Below, piece after piece: positions 3,684 through 44,075 of a DNA stretch of 44,075 bases (the first letter of the stretch is position 1; each line of letters begins with the position of its first letter). The position numbers and the translations under genes are program-made. The notes below the pieces were generated by a model. The model saw nothing but the letters and a program-made list of their open reading frames with translations, did no database searches and was not told the origin of the DNA. The DNA is from Akkermansia muciniphila. Lineage in GTDB: Bacteria; Verrucomicrobiota; Verrucomicrobiia; Limisphaerales; UBA9464. Where the stretch lies: the NCBI GenBank assembly GCA_945898055.1, contig CAMDGV010000034.1, positions 1-44,075 of the forward strand. The letters are read 5' to 3'.

Positions 3684-3722
3684 GTACGGGAAAAAGAGGC
3701 GATTTTAAACCATTTAACAGCT

Positions 3723-3731
3723 TTATTCACC
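3723..3731 (+). promoter_or_regulatory. DnaA-box-like site upstream of dnaA
   Basis: TTATTCACC differs from the DnaA-box consensus TTATNCACA at the last base only and lies 40 bases upstream of the dnaA start. DnaA autoregulation through such sites is known in other bacteria; here it is inferred from position. Confidence 0.4.
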
Positions 3732-3999: not shown

Positions 4000-4025
4000 T
4001 TCTCACGTTATTCACATCGTGAGAA
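4000..4025. promoter_or_regulatory. Inverted repeat with a consensus DnaA box in its loop
   Basis: Two perfect 8-base arms, TTCTCACG (4000-4007) and CGTGAGAA (4018-4025), flank a ten-base loop that contains TTATTCACA (4008-4016), an exact DnaA box. It lies in the 377-base gap between dnaA and the H1-like gene. No T-run follows, so it is not a good terminator. It may be a DnaA titration or regulatory site; this is inferred. Confidence 0.45.
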
Positions 4026-4060: not shown

Positions 4061-4444
4061 TCACGATTTTTTGGCAACCTTGGCCGCTGGCTTGGCCACC
4101 ACAGCCGGTGCCTTAGCGACAACCTTAGCCGCTGGCTTGGCCACTGCGGCCGGTGCCTTAGCGACAACCTTGGCCGCTGGCTTGGCCACTACGGCCGGTG
4201 CCTTAGCGACAACCTTAGCCGCTGGCTTGGCCACTGCGGCCGGTGCCTTAGCGACAACCTTAGCCGCTGGCTTGGCCACTACGGCCGATGCCTTAGCGGC
4301 AACCTTAGCCGCTGGCTTGGCCACTACGGCCGGTGCCTTAGCGACAACCTTAGCCGCTGGCTTGGCCACTACGGCCGGTACCTTAGCGACGGCGGGAGCG
4401 GCTGGGGTTGACGTTGTCTTAGTTTTTTTTACGGGTGTGGGCAT
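4061..4444 (-). CDS. Histone H1-like Lys/Ala/Pro-repeat protein
   Basis: This 127-residue protein is almost entirely Ala, Lys, Val and Pro. After a basic leader (MPTPVKKTKTT) it contains six 15-residue units of the form PAAKVVAKAPAVVAK and ends in KKS. Such lysine-rich repeat proteins resemble the C-terminal tail of histone H1 and bacterial H1-like proteins, which bind DNA non-specifically. A role in nucleoid compaction is inferred. The minus frame is preferred because its composition matches that family, while the plus-strand frames through the same repeat give Trp/Cys/Gly-rich or Ala/Leu/Thr-rich products of no known kind. It lies 27 bases downstream of glnB and is probably co-transcribed, ending at the terminator at 3843-3875. 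No clear Shine-Dalgarno precedes the ATG. Confidence 0.75.
   Translation of the reverse strand: MPTPVKKTKTTSTPAAPAVAKVPAVVAKPAAKVVAKAPAVVAKPAAKVAAKASAVVAKPAAKVVAKAPAAVAKPAAKVVAKAPAVVAKPAAKVVAKAPAAVAKPAAKVVAKAPAVVAKPAAKVAKKS
4091..4360 (-). repeat. Six tandem 45-bp repeats inside the H1-like gene
   Basis: Six in-frame 45-bp units encode the 15-residue KAP motif, with small Ala/Val, Thr/Ala and Pro/Ser differences between units. The similarity between units allows copy-number change by slippage without a frameshift, so the length of the protein may differ between strains. Confidence 0.85.
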
Positions 4445-10004: not shown

Positions 10005-10295
10005 CTTGTAGGCCCACGATTTGACTAAGTTCTCGGGGTGTCCAGACTCGAATCGCGATCTTCTTTAAATCTCACATCGAAAAAGCTCTCAACTTAAGCC
10101 CTCGCCTTTTCCAAAAAGCGCTCCATTCAGATACCCTCGCCATTTGACTGAGATCAAAGTTATCCCTGTGGGCTTACGAATAAGCTTTCTCCCTAAAGAG
10201 GCACCTGCGGTTGCTGTTTTCTCCGTTGCCCTAAATTGGCGTTGAAAATTGACTCTAAGCTTTCCCTCCGCACCCTACTTATCTACGGTCTGACT

Positions 10296-14822: not shown

Positions 14823-16013
14823 TCAGAACTCCCACTCGAGGCCACACTGGACGGTGTGCGACTGAAAGTTCTCAAGTTCGACATTAGACCGTTGGGTCTC
14901 AAATAACTCTTCAACAAAGAGGGTCAAATGGCTCCCCAGTCGTCGCTCGAGACGAACGTTGAATTCAAGGTCTTCTCGACGTCGGTACTTGAACAAATCT
15001 TCCGGTGCCGGCGACACAAATTGACGTTCATAACTCCACTCGCTCCAACGACATCCCCAGGCCATTGTCCACGCTTTCCAATCAGCCTTGAGGCTTATCC
15101 CTATCCCAAAGCGGTCGAAGTCATAAAATCCCACCTCTTGATCCCCATTGCCTAAATAGAACAGCCTCAGGGTGCTTTGAATACGGGGTCGATCAATCCA
15201 CCTATTTTTAAACACCAGCTCGGCGTGCCGCTGAGTGAAGTAAGCAACTGTTCCTAATTGAGGGACTCCTAAGAGGTTAGCAGCCGGTCGAGAATCATAG
15301 GCCCGATCGTCTTGCCTGATCGCCACTTCTACTGAACCCTTTGATCCATAATCCAATCCCACGGTTGCTTTTGGCCCCATTGCCCAAAATCCGTCCAGCG
15401 GTTGTTCAAAATTCTGTCGCTGCCACTGATATCCAAGGTCGATTCGGAATCCTCCGATTGGATTCCATCGAATCGACGGACTGGCGGTAAATCCATGGAC
15501 GGTCGCCCTCATTCCTCCATTGCCGTCCTCAAGGGTTGATGCGTCAAAAACTTGATCGGCATACAAATGTTGGCCGAGGAGATTCCAACTCCAGTTGTCG
15601 CTCAAGATACCTCTATAGTCGGCATGAGTTGACATCACGGTCTCTCCATTGACTACCCCTCCGGCGGTGTCCAATTCGACGCGTTTCACATAGCGTCGAT
15701 CATCGCCAATAAACATCAGCGTAAAGCGATGCTGATCAACTGGCATCCGGAAGAGAAAAAATTCGAGACCCCAACCCGCAAAGGGCGTCGCCTGAGAATT
15801 AGTGCCGGCTAGCAAAGAATTATCCCTCCACCCCCCACTTGTTCTTAAGGTCAGGGCCGACTGCCAAAGAAGGGAATCTGGATCTATTTGTTCCTCTCTT
15901 TGTCGAATCGGGCTCGCTTGCCATGGCCCCGCTTCGACCCTCTCGCTCAGCTCTCTCATTAACGCGATTAAACAAACTGCCCCTAGACTGAGCCGTTGAA
16001 TCGTAAATTGCAT
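14823..16013 (-). CDS. Outer membrane beta-barrel protein, unknown function
   Basis: The 396-residue protein begins with a short hydrophobic signal-like segment (RLSLGAVCLIALM). The rest is rich in alternating aromatic and polar residues typical of barrel strands (for example FRIDLGYQWQRQNFEQ and WGCRWSEWSYERQFV). It ends in phenylalanine (GLEWEF), the usual C-terminal signal for BAM insertion. No specific family was recognised. It precedes the sensor kinase in the same direction with only eight bases between them, so the kinase may respond to, or regulate, this barrel. The start is an ATG at 16011-16013. A terminator for the next upstream gene lies between 16046 and 16077, so this operon should have its own promoter close to the start. 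Confidence 0.7.
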   Translation of the reverse strand: MQFTIQRLSLGAVCLIALMRELSERVEAGPWQASPIRQREEQIDPDSLLWQSALTLRTSGGWRDNSLLAGTNSQATPFAGWGLEFFLFRMPVDQHRFTLMFIGDDRRYVKRVELDTAGGVVNGETVMSTHADYRGILSDNWSWNLLGQHLYADQVFDASTLEDGNGGMRATVHGFTASPSIRWNPIGGFRIDLGYQWQRQNFEQPLDGFWAMGPKATVGLDYGSKGSVEVAIRQDDRAYDSRPAANLLGVPQLGTVAYFTQRHAELVFKNRWIDRPRIQSTLRLFYLGNGDQEVGFYDFDRFGIGISLKADWKAWTMAWGCRWSEWSYERQFVSPAPEDLFKYRRREDLEFNVRLERRLGSHLTLFVEELFETQRSNVELENFQSHTVQCGLEWEF

Positions 16014-19257: not shown

Positions 19258-20373
19258 TTAGGTCATCCGCATCGGCATTATAACATACAAAAACGGTTCG
19301 TTTGTTTTTAAGACCCCTGGACTCAATTCGTCGATAAGCTCAAAATAGACCTCATCATTATCAACAGCTTTTAACGGATCCATCATATAACCGGGATTGA
19401 AGGCGATCGCCATATCTTTGCCCTCATATTTGATCGCTATGGTCTGTCGAGCTTCACCGACTTCGGGAGCATTAGCTGTGATGGTTAATTGATTTTTGCT
19501 AAAGGCTAGCTTAACCGAATTCTGTTTATCTGAAGTCATAATCTCCGCAAGTCGAAGTGCTTTTAAAAACTCTTCTCGCTGTAGCGGGATCCGTTCTTGG
19601 GGCGCAGCCGGTATTACCTGTCGATAATTCGGATAACTTCCATCCACTAGTTTTGTCATCAGTGTGGAAGTGAAGCCGCCCTCAATCGCTGGTTTAATTT
19701 TAAAACTCGCTTGGTTCTCTGAGTATTGAATCTCAACTTGTCCGCCTGTTCCCAGAAGCCGTCCTACTTCATTGATCGCCTTTGTCGGAACAATAAAATC
19801 AGCTTGATTTTCGCTGCTAAGATCAAATTCCTCTTCACAAAGAGCCAATCGTCTCCCATCGGTAGCCACCAAAATCATCCGATTATCTTTTAAACTAAAA
19901 AGGATTCCATTCAACTGATGCCGACTAGGGTCACCGGAAACCGCAAAGCTGGTTTTTCTCAACATCCCTTTCAACTTATCCGAGGACAGCTTAACCGACT
20001 TCTTAGTTGCGAAGGTATTAATTGGTGGGAATTCGTCTGCTGCAAGCCCATTAACCTTGAAAAAAGAACTTCCCGCTTTAATTACCGCCACCGATTTATC
20101 GTTAACCTCGATTGCAATTTGTCCTGCCACGAGTTCACGTGCTATATCAATAAACTTTTTTACGGGAAGCGTTGTTCTACCTGATAATTCAACGTCGGCA
20201 GCGACTGAACAGGAAACGGTAATGTCCAAATCGGTGACCGTCAGTTCCAATCGCCCATCCCCAGCCGAGAGGAGCACGTTAGCTAGGATCGGCAACGTCG
20301 TTCGAGAGCCGACGATGTTTTGAACTGCCGAGAGACCGATGAGAAGCTGCTCCTTGGCAACGGTAAGTTTCAT
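19258..20373 (-). CDS. dnaN: DNA polymerase III subunit beta, sliding clamp (DnaN)
   Basis: DnaN forms the ring-shaped dimer that tethers DNA polymerase III to DNA. At 371 residues it has the family length and starts MKLTVAKEQLLIGLSAVQNI. It shows the conserved TLPILANVLL, the DGRRLALCE loop and the C-terminal PMRM ending that forms part of the protein-binding pocket. The start is an ATG at 20371-20373. Its upstream region contains a consensus DnaA box and the point where strand composition changes, so it appears to border the origin. dnaA is not adjacent but 15.6 kb to the left. Confidence 0.97.
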   Translation of the reverse strand: MKLTVAKEQLLIGLSAVQNIVGSRTTLPILANVLLSAGDGRLELTVTDLDITVSCSVAADVELSGRTTLPVKKFIDIARELVAGQIAIEVNDKSVAVIKAGSSFFKVNGLAADEFPPINTFATKKSVKLSSDKLKGMLRKTSFAVSGDPSRHQLNGILFSLKDNRMILVATDGRRLALCEEEFDLSSENQADFIVPTKAINEVGRLLGTGGQVEIQYSENQASFKIKPAIEGGFTSTLMTKLVDGSYPNYRQVIPAAPQERIPLQREEFLKALRLAEIMTSDKQNSVKLAFSKNQLTITANAPEVGEARQTIAIKYEGKDMAIAFNPGYMMDPLKAVDNDEVYFELIDELSPGVLKTNEPFLYVIMPMRMT

Positions 20374-20645
20374 TGGAGTTATTATTCTGAGAAAGATCTG
20401 AAAGAGAAAGTCTTTATTAAGGGTTGTGAATAAGCCTCAGGACGTCAAGAAAAGGGCGTCCTGCAGGGGCTTCGAGGATAGCATAACTCGGTGGAAAAAC
20501 CTGTTAAGAGATTGGGAGACAACCCGAAGAGACAGTTGTTGGTGAGATATTGAGAGGGAATTCGCGGGTTACTGGTAATCGCATGTGAGGAACTTGAGGG
20601 CTCAAAGGCTTGCAGTGGTGAGAAGGCGGGGTAGAATTTTTGTTT
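20374..20645. other. Candidate chromosomal origin region (oriC)
   Basis: This gap separates genes that lie in a C-rich plus strand (left) from genes that lie in a G-rich plus strand (right), irrespective of gene direction. That is the pattern expected at a bidirectional origin. It contains one exact DnaA box (20425-20433), an A/T-rich segment next to it (20374-20420) and a 7-bp inverted repeat CAGGACG/CGTCCTG (20438-20463). Only one good DnaA box was seen, fewer than usual, so the assignment rests mainly on the skew and on the position beside dnaN. Confidence 0.5.
20425..20433 (-). promoter_or_regulatory. Consensus DnaA box upstream of dnaN
   Basis: TGTGAATAA is the reverse complement of TTATTCACA, an exact match to the DnaA-box consensus, about 52 bases upstream of the dnaN start. 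It may act in origin firing or in regulation of dnaN. Confidence 0.6.
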
Positions 20646-20771
20646 ATGGAAATCTCTCCACGACTCAAATTTAGTAGTGAATCCAGCTCGGAGAAAGTGG
20701 AGAAGCAGAGTGGATTTGTCGAGCGAACCGCTGATCTGACGGGTAAGAAAGGGGTCGAGGAAGAGGTTCTA

Positions 20772-21101
20772 ATGACGGCGATCCCTCTTTTAGGGCAGGG
20801 GGCAAGGAGTCTTTTGGAGAGCGCGATACCCTTGTGGAGCGAAACAGGGCCGTCAATTGAAAGGACGCTGGAATTCAGCTCTTTTGCCGCAGCGATTGAC
20901 TTCGTTGTCCGCGTGGCGCAAGAGGCTGAAAGGGTTCAACATCACCCGGACATTAGAATATCGTGGAGGACCGTTAAACTGAGTTTAACAACCCACAGTA
21001 GCGGCGGGTTAACAGAGAAGGATGTCTCGTTTGCGCTACTTTGTGATGGGATGGAGAGAAATTTTAGTAGTGGATCAGCTAAGCAAGAGGAGGCGGAGTG
21101 A
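20772..21101 (+). CDS. 4a-hydroxytetrahydrobiopterin dehydratase (PCD family)
   Basis: PCD recycles the pterin cofactor of aromatic amino acid hydroxylases by dehydrating 4a-hydroxytetrahydrobiopterin. The 109-residue product shows the family core: FSSFAAAIDFVVRVAQEAE, the catalytic pair H57/H58 followed by P59 and D60, then SLTTHSSGGLTEKDVSFA. The ATG at 20772 is preceded by GAGGAAGAGG at good spacing and gives the normal family length. An ATG at 20646 would add 42 low-complexity residues. No aromatic hydroxylase gene is visible nearby, so the partner is unknown; some bacterial PCDs act in other pathways. It is the first gene right of the proposed origin and is transcribed away from it. Confidence 0.88.
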   Translation: MTAIPLLGQGARSLLESAIPLWSETGPSIERTLEFSSFAAAIDFVVRVAQEAERVQHHPDIRISWRTVKLSLTTHSSGGLTEKDVSFALLCDGMERNFSSGSAKQEEAE

Positions 21102-26745: not shown

Positions 26746-28743
26746 TTAAAGATCTCCGCAACATTGATTATGAGCTGAAGGGACTTCGATGTTTTCCTCG
26801 GCCGCACAGCAAGAGGGGTCGGCGGGCTCAGGAGAAGACTGAGGAAAAGGCTGGATGAACCGCTTCATCCAAATCATGAGGAGACTGACATCGGCCGGGG
26901 TAACTCCACTAATACGCCCTGCTTGACCGAGTGTGGAAGGTCGGATCTTTTCGAATTTCAGACGGGCTTCAATCCGGAGACTAGGAACAAGTGAATAGTC
27001 GACAGACGCAGGAATACGGCGATTTTCGAGGTTTTTGATCTTTTCGACCTCAACTTCTTGTCGACTGATATAGCCCGCGTACTTAATGCGGGTTTGAACT
27101 TGAAAAACAATTTCCTCAGGAAGGTCGGAGCGGCTGAGGGGGAGGGCGGCGTAGTCAATTTCCGGTCGTTTAAGAAGGTCCGCAAGAAGAGTCTCGCCGA
27201 CCCGGGTGATTTGAAGTCGCTGGATCTCCTCCTCAATAGCAGCCGATTTTTTTAAATACCGGTCATAATTAGAGGATGGCAGGAGGCCTATTTGGTGAGC
27301 GAGTGGGCTTAATCGTTCATCGGCATTGTCCTGACGAAGCAGCAGCCGGTACTCGGCCCGGCTGGTGAACATTCGATAAGGTTCGGAGGTCCCCTTGGTG
27401 ATCAAATCATCAATGAGCACCCCAATGTAGGACTGGTCACGGCGCAGAAGAAGCGGAGACTTATTCTGACATCGGAGGGCCGCATTGATCCCAGCAATAA
27501 GGCCTTGAGCGGCGGCTTCCTCGTAACCGGAGGTCCCGTTAATTTGACCTGCAAGAAAAAGGTTATGGCAGGTCTTGGTTTCGAGCGAGGCGTCTAGTTG
27601 GGTGGGATGAGCAAAATCGTATTCGACCGCATAAGCAGGTCGGATGATTTCAGCGTTTTCACAGCCAATGATCGACCGGACAATTTGATATTGAATGTCG
27701 AAGGGGAGGCAGGTTGAGAAGCCATTGACGTAGATCTCATCGGTCGCAATTCCTTCAGGTTCGAGGAAGATCTGATGACGCGCTTTATCAGCGAATCGAA
27801 CAAATTTGTCTTCGATACTAGGACAATATCGAGGACCTACCCCCTCGATCACCCCAGAATACATGGGCGATCGGTGGAGATTTGCCAGAATCAGCTCCCG
27901 AGTTAGGTCGGTGGTGTGGGTGATATAGCAGGGCAACTGACCTGCGTTTAGGGCGAGGATTGAACCAGGTGGATAGGGAGAGGTAAGTGGAGGGGGAGCA
28001 GAAGGGGTTTGTTCCACGTGGAACAAAGGGACGTCCCAGAGGTCTTCTTTCCAAAAGGTGAACCAAGGAACAGGAGACTCGCCGTGTTGAATCGCTGTTT
28101 TTGAGAAATCGATAGATTTACGGAGGAGCCGAGGTGGGGTACCGGTCTTGAGGCGGCCAAGCTCCAGGCCAATTTCTTGAAGAGATCCAGAAAGGCCGAA
28201 AGCGGCCGACTCGCCGGCGCGACCTCCCGATTGCTGATTGGAACCCACATGCATCAATCCGCGGAGGAAAGTGCCGGTGGTAATAATAACTGTCGTCGCT
28301 AGGAATTGAACTTCCAGAGCGGTCTCGACGCCAATCACCTGACCTTTCTGATGCAAGAGTCGGAGGGTCTGGCCCTGTTTGCAATCGAGATTCGGCTGAC
28401 GTTCGCAAACCCATTTCATCCGAAACTGGTAAGCCTTCTTGTCGCATTGGGCGCGTGGGGCCCAAACTGACGGGCCTTTTCGCGTATTCAGCATGCGAAA
28501 TTGAAGACCGGTCATGTCGGTGGTCTTCCCCATCTCCCCGCCAAGCGCATCAATCTCACGCGCCAGATGCCCCTTTCCGAGTCCGCCGATAGCTGGATTG
28601 CAGGACATTTGCCCAATGGTATCCAGATTGATCGTCAGCAGTAGGGTCTGGCAGCCCATGCGGGCAGCGGCCAGCGCAGCCTCAACCCCCGCGTGGCCGG
28701 CGCCCACCACGATGACATCATAGTGCTTCGGATAGACAAACAT
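26746..28743 (-). CDS. mnmG: tRNA uridine-5-carboxymethylaminomethyl modification enzyme MnmG (GidA)
   Basis: MnmG, with MnmE, forms the cmnm5 group on wobble U34 of several tRNAs. The 665-residue protein (ATG at 28741-28743) has the FAD motif GAGHAG at 14-19, then SCNPAIGGLGKGHL, KTGTPPRL, CYITHT, GVGPRYCPSIEDK and the C-terminal region ending near ISGVTPADVSLLMIW. It exceeds the E. coli protein (629 aa) because of a Pro-rich insertion of roughly 25-30 residues between FTFW and QLPCYITHT (about 227-263). That insertion carries a perfect parS-like palindrome at codons 240-245. In many bacteria mnmG lies near the origin with mnmE, rsmG, parA and parB; none of these is in the window. A TTG at 28779 would add 12 residues. 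Confidence 0.96.
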   Translation of the reverse strand: MFVYPKHYDVIVVGAGHAGVEAALAAARMGCQTLLLTINLDTIGQMSCNPAIGGLGKGHLAREIDALGGEMGKTTDMTGLQFRMLNTRKGPSVWAPRAQCDKKAYQFRMKWVCERQPNLDCKQGQTLRLLHQKGQVIGVETALEVQFLATTVIITTGTFLRGLMHVGSNQQSGGRAGESAAFGLSGSLQEIGLELGRLKTGTPPRLLRKSIDFSKTAIQHGESPVPWFTFWKEDLWDVPLFHVEQTPSAPPPLTSPYPPGSILALNAGQLPCYITHTTDLTRELILANLHRSPMYSGVIEGVGPRYCPSIEDKFVRFADKARHQIFLEPEGIATDEIYVNGFSTCLPFDIQYQIVRSIIGCENAEIIRPAYAVEYDFAHPTQLDASLETKTCHNLFLAGQINGTSGYEEAAAQGLIAGINAALRCQNKSPLLLRRDQSYIGVLIDDLITKGTSEPYRMFTSRAEYRLLLRQDNADERLSPLAHQIGLLPSSNYDRYLKKSAAIEEEIQRLQITRVGETLLADLLKRPEIDYAALPLSRSDLPEEIVFQVQTRIKYAGYISRQEVEVEKIKNLENRRIPASVDYSLVPSLRIEARLKFEKIRPSTLGQAGRISGVTPADVSLLMIWMKRFIQPFPQSSPEPADPSCCAAEENIEVPSAHNQCCGDL
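28008..28027. promoter_or_regulatory. parS: parS-like site (ParB binding) inside mnmG
   Basis: The 20-base sequence TTTGTTCCACGTGGAACAAA is a perfect palindrome whose core TGTTCCACGTGGAACA (28010-28025) matches the chromosomal parS consensus, as used for example in Pseudomonas. It is read in mnmG as LFHVEQ inside a non-conserved insertion. ParB/Spo0J loads at such sites near the origin to recruit SMC and segregate origins. No parB gene is present in this window, so the assignment is by sequence. Confidence 0.85.
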
Positions 28744-28784: not shown

Positions 28785-29891
28785 CTACGGATTTGTTCCA
28801 CGTGGAACAAGAGGGTCTTCTTTGATCTTAGTGGATTGGGAAGGTCGGCTGACGGAAGCCTCCGCTTCCGTTAAGGCTTGGGCTAAAAGTTCAGTGTAGG
28901 GATATCGCTCTGATTCAGACAAATGGGAGCGAGTAGCGAAGGCCGCATCCGGAAGAGTTGCCGGTAAAGTCTGAAGGGGGATGCCAGAAGGGCTCAACCA
29001 AAGGGTGAGGGTTGCTAGGCAACGGAGATATCGAGTCTGATAATCAGGTGACGCTTCCGACTCGGGGATTGGGGTGATTCCAATAAAAAGAGCACTTCCT
29101 TCGGGGAGCTGACTTCGTGCTAATCGAGCTGTTTTCTCGAGGCGGCTTGAGATCTCAAGGAGGGGCGGACGAGGGCCGCTGAGTCGGTATTTCCTAGGAT
29201 CAACTGCCCCGCCTTCCGACCTTACAAAGTGGATCAGTTGTTGGTTAAAGCCGTAGTGCCGTCCGAAGTCGCCGGTTAAGGGAAAAGGACGTAGGTAAGT
29301 CTCCAGATGGGTTCGATAAAGAGGAACCCCTAGGAGTGAAGAAAGGTCCCAGAAGGAATCTCTTGAAGGACGAACGAGCGCCGTCTGAGGATCCCGGTCT
29401 AGAAGCTCTTTAAAATCGGTAAGAAGCTCGATGTCACCAGCTGGGCGCATCAGAAAGTCGGGATGAACCAAAAGGACCAAGGTTCTAGGCACTTGGGAGA
29501 TCGAGTGAGAAGCAAGAGCGGCAAAAGCGGGAAGATCAAGCAGGCTCATGGTACCGAGGTTTAGAACAGATTTCTGAAGCTGACTTCCGAGCCTTCGCCC
29601 TGAAACATTCATTAAACAGGAGGAATCACCCACTAGAACGACTTCGGCCACCTTGCGAGACGCCTTCACCTGAAGCCAAAGAAGGGTATGTTCCATGTCC
29701 TGTAGAGGAGCGTGAGGGGGAAGGAGGCCAAAAAAGGAGGCGAGGTGGAGGAGGCCGGACAGAAGACAAACCCCAATGAAGGGCGGGAAAAGAGCGTGAA
29801 TTAGTCCGCGTGAGGTAACCTCAAAGGTATGGCTTTTCAGGAGATTCCTTAAAATTGGAAGTAGATGAAAGAGGAAGGCTCTGTTTTCCAA
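28785..29891 (-). CDS. SGNH/AlgJ-like partner of the MBOAT acyltransferase
   Basis: The protein has an N-terminal membrane segment (ALFPPFIGVCLLSGLLHLASFFGLL) and then an extracytoplasmic domain with VVLVGDSSCLMN, a GDS(S) motif like block I of SGNH hydrolases. ESERYPY near the C-terminus could be the second block. Such proteins commonly accompany MBOAT enzymes and take part in O-acetylation of exported polysaccharide; here the assignment is inferred from the motif and the adjacent MBOAT gene. The start is uncertain: no ATG is available before residue 65 of this frame, and I used a TTG at 29891, which overlaps the MBOAT stop by 43 bases. A TTG at 29963 or an ATG at 29699 are alternatives. Its last codons (LVPRGTNP) are written by a parS palindrome. 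Confidence 0.65.
   Translation of the reverse strand: MENRAFLFHLLPILRNLLKSHTFEVTSRGLIHALFPPFIGVCLLSGLLHLASFFGLLPPHAPLQDMEHTLLWLQVKASRKVAEVVLVGDSSCLMNVSGRRLGSQLQKSVLNLGTMSLLDLPAFAALASHSISQVPRTLVLLVHPDFLMRPAGDIELLTDFKELLDRDPQTALVRPSRDSFWDLSSLLGVPLYRTHLETYLRPFPLTGDFGRHYGFNQQLIHFVRSEGGAVDPRKYRLSGPRPPLLEISSRLEKTARLARSQLPEGSALFIGITPIPESEASPDYQTRYLRCLATLTLWLSPSGIPLQTLPATLPDAAFATRSHLSESERYPYTELLAQALTEAEASVSRPSQSTKIKEDPLVPRGTNP
28794..28809. promoter_or_regulatory. parS: Second parS-like site, at the 3' end of the SGNH-like gene
   Basis: TGTTCCACGTGGAACA is identical to the core of the site in mnmG and lies 784 bases from it, about 50 bases upstream of the mnmG start. It overlaps the final codons of the minus-strand SGNH-like gene and is read in a different frame (VPRGT) from that in mnmG. 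Two exact copies of a 16-base palindrome this close together support a real parS cluster. Confidence 0.85.
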
Positions 29892-43864: not shown

Positions 43865-44075
43865 AACTATGGGGCAGGCTACCTATTCCTCGGTAGAGGG
43901 GGAACTATGGGGCAGGCTACCTATTCCTTTAGCAGGCGGTCCCTTCGCATCTATGGGCGCGGCCAAGACAACTCGGGCGGACCGAAGTAGGGCACGCGTA
44001 TCCGCTGAGGAGGGGTAAACTATGGGGCAGGCTACCTATTCCTCGGTAGAGGGGGAACTATGGGGCAGGCTACCT
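43865..44075. repeat. Direct repeat block at the right edge
   Basis: The 26-base unit that starts AACTATGGGGCAGGCTACCT occurs at 43865-43890, 43903-43928 and 44018-44043 and, cut by the edge, at 44056-44075. Within each pair the units are separated by the same 12 bases (CGGTAGAGGGGG), giving a 38-base period, and the two pairs are 153 bases apart with unique sequence between. The block lies upstream of the arsS-type gene and continues beyond the window. Confidence 0.9.

Follow-up and report, generated by a model that had tools for sequence, protein, structure and literature searches.

The window analysed here is a stretch of 44,075 bp that comprises the whole of contig C34 in a draft genome of 4,631,575 bases and 136 contigs. 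The genes recognized in it with Pfam and NCBIfam are, from left to right, lnt, dnaA, lpxK, dnaE, a DUF3500 gene, genes for a histidine kinase and a sigma-54 response regulator, a TIM-barrel gene, dnaN, genes for a pterin dehydratase, a family-4 uracil-DNA glycosylase and pyruvate kinase, a brkB-like gene and mnmG. The 15.6 kb that separate dnaA from dnaN contain nine annotated or predicted genes. A profile search of the entire draft finds a single PF00308 match, which is this dnaA. Searches of the window with Rfam at gathering scores and with a tRNA scan gave no matches. The search of genome_contigs provided one relative, L002, an uncultured Verrucomicrobiales MAG whose DnaN is 57% identical. 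It is from this match that the bacterium is taken to belong to Verrucomicrobiota. The coordinates of the features are collected in Table 1.

A 45-bp repeat in seven copies (94% matches) is present at positions 4075-4390, between dnaA and lpxK. The copies sit within a minus-strand open reading frame of 127 amino acids that is rich in Ala, Lys, Val and Pro and that resembles histone H1 by look alone.

Table 1. Genes and sequence elements of the window that bear on the proposed origin
Feature	Position	Strand	Basis
dnaA, initiator, 462 aa	2295..3683	-	PF00308, E 9.8e-68
Proximal box GTGAATAAA (dnaA sense), at -47	3722..3730	+	kept in relatives
Distal DnaA box TTATTCACA, 285 bp from proximal box	4008..4016	+	kept in relatives
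dnaN, DNA polymerase III beta clamp, 371 aa	19258..20373	-	TIGR00663, E 3.8e-94; Pfam
Local AT-rich tract, candidate unwinding region	20360..20420	.	40-bp AT fractions
Gap between dnaN and pterin-4a-carbinolamine dehydratase, proposed oriC	20374..20639	.	skew switch here and in relatives
Pyrimidine tract TTTCTCTTT, formally three NTN triplets, 15 bp past box	20401..20409	-	rule scan
Spacer and trio-like tract ACCC-TTA-ATA-AAG-AC	20410..20424	-	aligns with CCTTACTAAGGAC or CCCTACTAATGGC of relatives
DnaA box TTATTCACA, 60 bp before dnaN start	20425..20433	-	sequence match
Second, weak DnaA box TTTTCCACC, 2 mismatches	20490..20498	-	sequence match
Pterin-4a-carbinolamine dehydratase, right neighbour of gap, divergent from dnaN	20640..21101	+	PF01329, E 2.5e-24
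parS palindrome TGTTCCACGTGGAACA, within mnmG	28010..28025	.	palindrome match
parS palindrome TGTTCCACGTGGAACA	28794..28809	.	palindrome match

Strand composition and parS sites around dnaN

From the base counts of four rows (G14/C25 at 7261, G8/C21 at 13081, G21/C7 at 22741 and G22/C11 at 25201), an earlier note on this DNA had proposed that the sign of the strand composition changes near 20.4 kb, independently of gene direction. The four counts are correct, and both parts of the proposal are borne out. The cumulative GC skew of the 44,075 bases has its minimum (-902) at position 20266 and its maximum (+877) at 44069; the minimum is that of a 44-kb contig, the genome itself being a draft. The depth of the minimum was matched by none of 5000 shuffles of 500-bp blocks, the best of which reached 366. 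A two-segment likelihood fit of positions 3500-43000 also places the switch at 20266, with an interval of 20107-20375 at 3 log units and of 19836-20552 at 10 log units. The best switch point is ~110 bp within the 5′ end of dnaN, and the narrower interval barely reaches the gap between dnaN and the pterin dehydratase gene. The AT skew of the window is lowest at 20178.

At fourfold-degenerate sites the sign flips on either coding strand. On the plus strand, G exceeds C in all 15 genes to the right of the gap (21115 on) and C exceeds G in nine of the 11 genes to its left, although one of these nine, at 14823-16013, is counted by merely -0.01. The two exceptions, lnt (+0.14) and dnaA (+0.08), are both leftmost. 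The corresponding figures for A versus T are 13/15 genes to the right and 7/11 to the left. Skew is positive at the far left of the window (1-2 kb), which produces a minor second sign change near 2 kb in the opposite, terminus-like sense.

A similar pattern is found in relatives of the same family. Over flanks of 1.5 to 9 kb, skew is negative before and positive after the dnaN start at 21 of 29 family loci including the window (20 of 28 relatives). The turn exceeds 0.02 on both sides at 16 of the 29, compared with 19 of 276 control positions. The controls were drawn from G026, from four more genomes of the family and from 58 stretches of G111, and their genomes do not correspond one to one with those of the 29 loci. 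A turn of any size is displayed by 42 of the 276 controls and by none of five dnaA loci; because of the relatedness of the loci and the overlap between controls, these counts are not independent trials.

The eight family loci that do not show the turn at dnaN are those of G026, G025, G031, G008, G011, G012, G043 and G037. The first three belong to the clade nearest to the genome of the window by DnaA (85-87%) among those in which dnaN was found. In G026 (contig C25), the plus-strand cumulative skew climbs to the left and to the right of dnaN alike over ~120-200 kb, apart from small reversals. This genome keeps the gene order of the window from the TIM-barrel gene to a beta-CASP gene as well as the box element upstream of dnaN, and despite the one-sign skew its parS is 10-11 kb from the dnaN start. 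An inversion to the left of dnaN would explain the one-sign skew. In G029, G035 and G021, the block that consists of the TIM-barrel gene, dnaN, the pterin dehydratase gene, udg4 and pyk is inverted relative to mnmG, and a local skew minimum is still found within 1.4 kb of the dnaN start.

That the switch represents a boundary of gene orientation or of a recent inversion, with no origin nearby, is very unlikely. Fourfold sites change sign whatever the gene strand, the turn recurs at dnaN in relatives that have different neighbouring genes, and both parS and the one-contig genome G111, described below, indicate the same place. Such a boundary would nevertheless be in keeping with the variable gene order round dnaN among relatives, with the missing turn at the same gene in G026 and with the finding that blocks to the left of dnaN are on separate contigs in relatives.

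The dnaN start is separated from the two parS sites of the window by 7.6 and 8.4 kb. When one mismatch is allowed, TGTTNCACGTGNAACA has only these two sites in the whole 4.63-Mb draft, and the reversed pattern, taken as a control, has no match in the same genome. Chromosomal parS sites are described as lying mostly near the origin (PMC7333895). The 16-bp sites of the window, less than 10 kb from the proposed origin, are like those of origin-proximal ParABS systems in this respect, but differ in that no parB is seen beside them: the sole ParB_N match of the genome is on a different contig (G000:C47:28950-29225).

An exact parS is present in 39 of 50 family genomes. Among family genomes that have both dnaN and parS, the two share a contig in 23 of 38, at distances of 4.9-29.6 kb (low coordinate to low coordinate). 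For dnaA and parS the figure is one of 36, the one being this window. Outside the family, among the 55 genomes listed from the order, parS is on the contig of dnaN in 22 of 51 (2.3-119 kb away) and on that of dnaA in six of 51, where contigs with several parS sites often entered the counts by their first site alone. Two of these six are one-contig genomes, in which dnaA and parS are 0.58 and 1.17 Mb apart. In G095, G142 and G150 (family f12), dnaA is 3.3-3.7 kb from parS; among the genomes listed outside the family of the window, the next nearest pair is that of G121, at 12.4 kb.

G111, a member of the same order and of another family, is a single contig of 4,726,914 bp. Its skew was sampled by 60 stretches of 20 kb, which amount to a quarter of the chromosome. 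The stretch with the sampled cumulative minimum (centre 3.709 Mb) has its end at the dnaN start, and the sampled maximum is at 1.37 Mb, 2.35 Mb or about half a chromosome away; correction for net skew moves neither. The dnaA gene of G111, at 3.144 Mb and 573 kb from dnaN, is at neither extreme, and parS is 8.5 kb from dnaN. Past rearrangement is suggested by two other features of the profile, a smaller dip around 2.6 Mb and a reversed segment around 4.4 Mb. In G096, also on one contig, ~24 kb separate the sole exact parS from dnaN, and 1.17 Mb separate it from dnaA.

The box and trio-like element upstream of dnaN

The gap does contain the exact DnaA box that the earlier note had placed in it. 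Taken alone, this box is weak evidence for an origin. TTWTNCACA has three matches in the window, and boxes with at most one mismatch from TTATCCACA number eight, where Markov sequences give 5.6 +/- 2.3. The gap has one strong and one weak box and lacks the group of several strong boxes that is typical of oriC. Half-boxes similar to the weak one are found near the same place in relatives (by eye only).

The strong DnaA box of this non-coding stretch is conserved in position. Thirty family regions upstream of dnaN were analysed, out of 45 family dnaN matches. TTRTYCAC is present 60-62 bp before the dnaN start in 28 of the 30, G012 and G013 having diverged versions, and it is found in G111 and L002 as well. 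This pattern, composed after the sequences had been inspected, is within -80 to -45 of dnaN in 30 of 32 regions, compared with 0.0026 expected per region. A longer pattern, also composed after inspection, in which TTRTYCAC is followed a few bases on by C(T)TA[CAT]TA, occurs 22 times in 2,342,235 bases (loci L063 and up). All 22 occurrences are in the dnaN sense and 58-62 bp ahead of dnaN; the exact pattern is absent from seven of the 29 dnaN loci of this set.

In the window the element reads TTATTCACA-ACCC-TTAATAAAGAC. The sequence around it is rich in A + T, with AT fractions of 0.68, 0.75 and 0.65 in 40-bp windows that begin at 20360, 20380 and 20400. In Bacillus subtilis the order is box, then trios, then dnaN. 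Between dnaA and dnaN in that species, a DnaA box is separated from trios by a short GC-rich spacer, and these constitute the basal unwinding system, or BUS (PMC6669920, PMC8287927). The half of the origin in this intergenic stretch, incC, has seven boxes with dnaA adjacent (PMC6669920). The window is similar to incC and its BUS in that a box, a short GC-rich spacer and a trio-like tract precede dnaN. It differs in the distant dnaA, the one good box and the short trios.

The BUS rule (PMC8287927) was applied in a simplified, single-box form, with a box of at most two mismatches, a spacer of 0-16 and at least three NAN trios. It picks out the dnaN box in 17 of 30 family regions, and does so well in G111, with five trios and a spacer of 4. 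In the window, the tract next to the spacer has two consecutive NTN triplets, one short of three trios, and the putative trio is weak. The main box is picked out solely via TTTCTCTTT at a spacer of 15, and the rule has 25 hits across the window, so that it is only suggestive here.

In relatives of the same genus, the tract upstream of dnaN commonly forms a palindrome, CCTTACTAAGG, which is echoed in inverted form (CTTACTA ... TAGTAAG) ahead of the start codon; both were noticed by eye, and the arrangement is broken in the window. A further motif, A[CT]AACC, was chosen by eye beforehand and is seen 83 times upstream of dnaN in 29 regions, where 8.4 are expected; G034, with its short upstream sequence, was excluded, and the motif carries no weight in the origin call.

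The element might be merely a DnaA-regulated promoter of dnaN, the real initiation site being elsewhere within a few kb. Its position 58-62 bp from the dnaN start would suit a promoter, and TACAAT-like hexamers are seen by eye between element and start codon in some relatives. The gap has a single strong box, and one is also present upstream of dnaA, at -47 to -64, so a box near -60 may just mark promoters regulated by DnaA. The proximity of the skew switch, about 50-320 bp from the box, makes this explanation unlikely, as does the joint occurrence of element, skew turn and parS in many relatives, whereas the boxes of the dnaA promoter come without a skew turn (0/5) and have parS on their contig in 1/36.

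Boxes upstream of dnaA

The dnaA gene has conserved boxes of its own. All 30 family dnaA loci analysed have GTGAATAA at -47 to -64. A distal box, in most cases with a second half-box after it, is present at -328 to -346 in 29 of 29, a count that leaves out G030 with its short upstream sequence. The spacing between distal and proximal box is 285 bp in 20 of the 29 loci, 286 in six, and 287, 282 and 274 in one each; the last is shorter than 285 by about one helical turn. In the 20 loci of equal length, the stretch between the two boxes is little conserved past the first ~75 bases. The boxes of G111 are at -333 and -51, a spacing of 282, and the same search upstream of dnaA in G096 found no boxes. 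Strict TTWTNCACA is present in 6 of 30 regions upstream of dnaN and in 6 of 30 upstream of dnaA. Since boxes are kept at least as well at dnaA as at dnaN, their conservation cannot separate a site at dnaN from one at dnaA; skew and parS can.

The likeliest reading of the dnaA-upstream boxes is self-regulation of dnaA, perhaps via a DNA loop. A bolder one is that they are the remnant of a two-part origin. It is highly improbable that the origin itself is at dnaA, or that it is bipartite with its active half there (boxes 3722-3730 and 4008-4016). The two boxes do keep their positions throughout the family with near-constant spacing, and in G111 also. Against this, the window has no origin-type switch at dnaA, none of five relatives turns there, parS is on the contig of dnaA in one of 36 family genomes, and dnaA of G111 is 573 kb from the minimum; self-regulation, moreover, can explain the boxes.

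The proposed origin and the position of dnaA

The gap upstream of dnaN is very probably the bidirectional chromosome origin, oriC, or a part of it, as judged from the sequence features described. This reading follows from the skew switch, the pair of parS sites, the conserved element and the occurrence of the same pattern in relatives. The origin that the earlier note had proposed here is thus supported by two parS sites, a conserved box element, skew turns at 21 of 29 family loci and the G111 minimum at dnaN.

DnaA binding, melting and initiation at the gap are what we infer from this reading. DnaA would occupy the box at 20425-20433 plus weaker sites upstream, and a DnaA filament would grow in the direction of dnaN over the adjoining T-rich, trio-like tract. 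Melting would take place in the AT-rich DNA at 20360-20420, and helicase would then be loaded. One fork would move leftward through dnaN and the other rightward past parS, and the copied parS region would be moved by ParB and ParA. The skew switch would have arisen because the leading and lagging strands differ persistently in how they mutate.

The earlier note had regarded an origin at dnaN, with dnaA 15.6 kb away, as an unusual arrangement. As stated, this did not hold up: of the 125 order genomes in which both genes were matched, 119 have dnaA and dnaN on different contigs, a separation of draft contigs that gives no distance, and the two are separate in Synechococcus elongatus too. Partial matches (dnaA of G046, G087 and G114; dnaN of G169, G073, G151 and G165) were excluded from the contig-sharing counts of family and order, as were secondary matches. 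The two genes share a contig in four drafts, at 8.3, 9.8 and 40 kb and, for this window, at 17.0 kb measured between the low ends, and they are 0.57 Mb (G111) and 1.15 Mb (G096) apart in the one-contig genomes of the order. In the family they are on one contig in one of 42 genomes, the one that contains this window. An origin at dnaN apart from dnaA looks usual in the order, and dnaA is here unusually near to dnaN, rather than far from it.

The nearness of dnaA represents either a recent rearrangement in the lineage or a false join in the assembly, as the left flank of the window is a mosaic of blocks. The dnaA-lpxK-dnaE block matches contig C12 of G020 up to window position 10269, and the remaining 147 bases of that contig are unmatched. 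The ~14.8-17.8 kb block, from a gene of unknown function to the sigma-54 regulator, is off the dnaE and dnaN contigs in G026, G025, G031 and G033. Edges of synteny blocks are seen at window positions 10269 and about 18300. Tetranucleotide correlations are 0.73-0.87 among parts of the window and 0.12-0.61 against two other genomes, a comparison that is blind to joins within a genome. The origin call does not hinge on the position of dnaA.

An origin of this kind, DnaA-type and beside dnaN with dnaA separate, is already known from S. elongatus PCC 7942. There the origin was found experimentally near dnaN at a shift in GC skew, and dnaA and dnaN are encoded separately (PMC7198777). The proposed origin of the window is likewise at a skew shift beside dnaN with dnaA elsewhere, and is of the same type; it differs in belonging to an unrelated phylum, and in that the S. 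elongatus origin is an experimental one. In 12 gut strains, Akkermansia muciniphila among them, origins were placed via parS and skew and were not systematically with dnaA (PMC10197239). The available passages of that study give neither the position of the Akkermansia origin nor dnaN. No description of a dnaN origin in Verrucomicrobiota is among the literature matches listed, which cover titles and the starts of abstracts, with most subscription journals outside.

A more tentative proposal, which we regard as possible and no better than that, is that an ancestral two-part origin was split. The unwinding half may have stayed with dnaN and parS and formed a highly compact origin, while the dnaA-side half may have gone with dnaA as its promoter. 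On the dnaN side, the half would consist of one box and, after a short GC-rich spacer, either a short trio or a palindrome of the kind of CCTTACTAAGG, at a fixed 58-62 bp from the dnaN start. On the dnaA side, it would consist of the distal box pair and the proximal box ~285 bp apart, acting as a looped, self-regulating promoter. If the split did take place, unwinding in this order would start from one strong box, in a natural minimal origin physically separate from the initiator gene.

The position of the origin sets gene dosage and permits growth rate to be obtained from metagenome coverage. A caution against dnaA as origin anchor has already been published (PMC10197239). Anchoring at dnaA would misplace the G111 origin by 0.57 Mb, whereas dnaN together with parS would place it; for G096, the misplacement would be 1.15 Mb if its origin is also at dnaN and parS.
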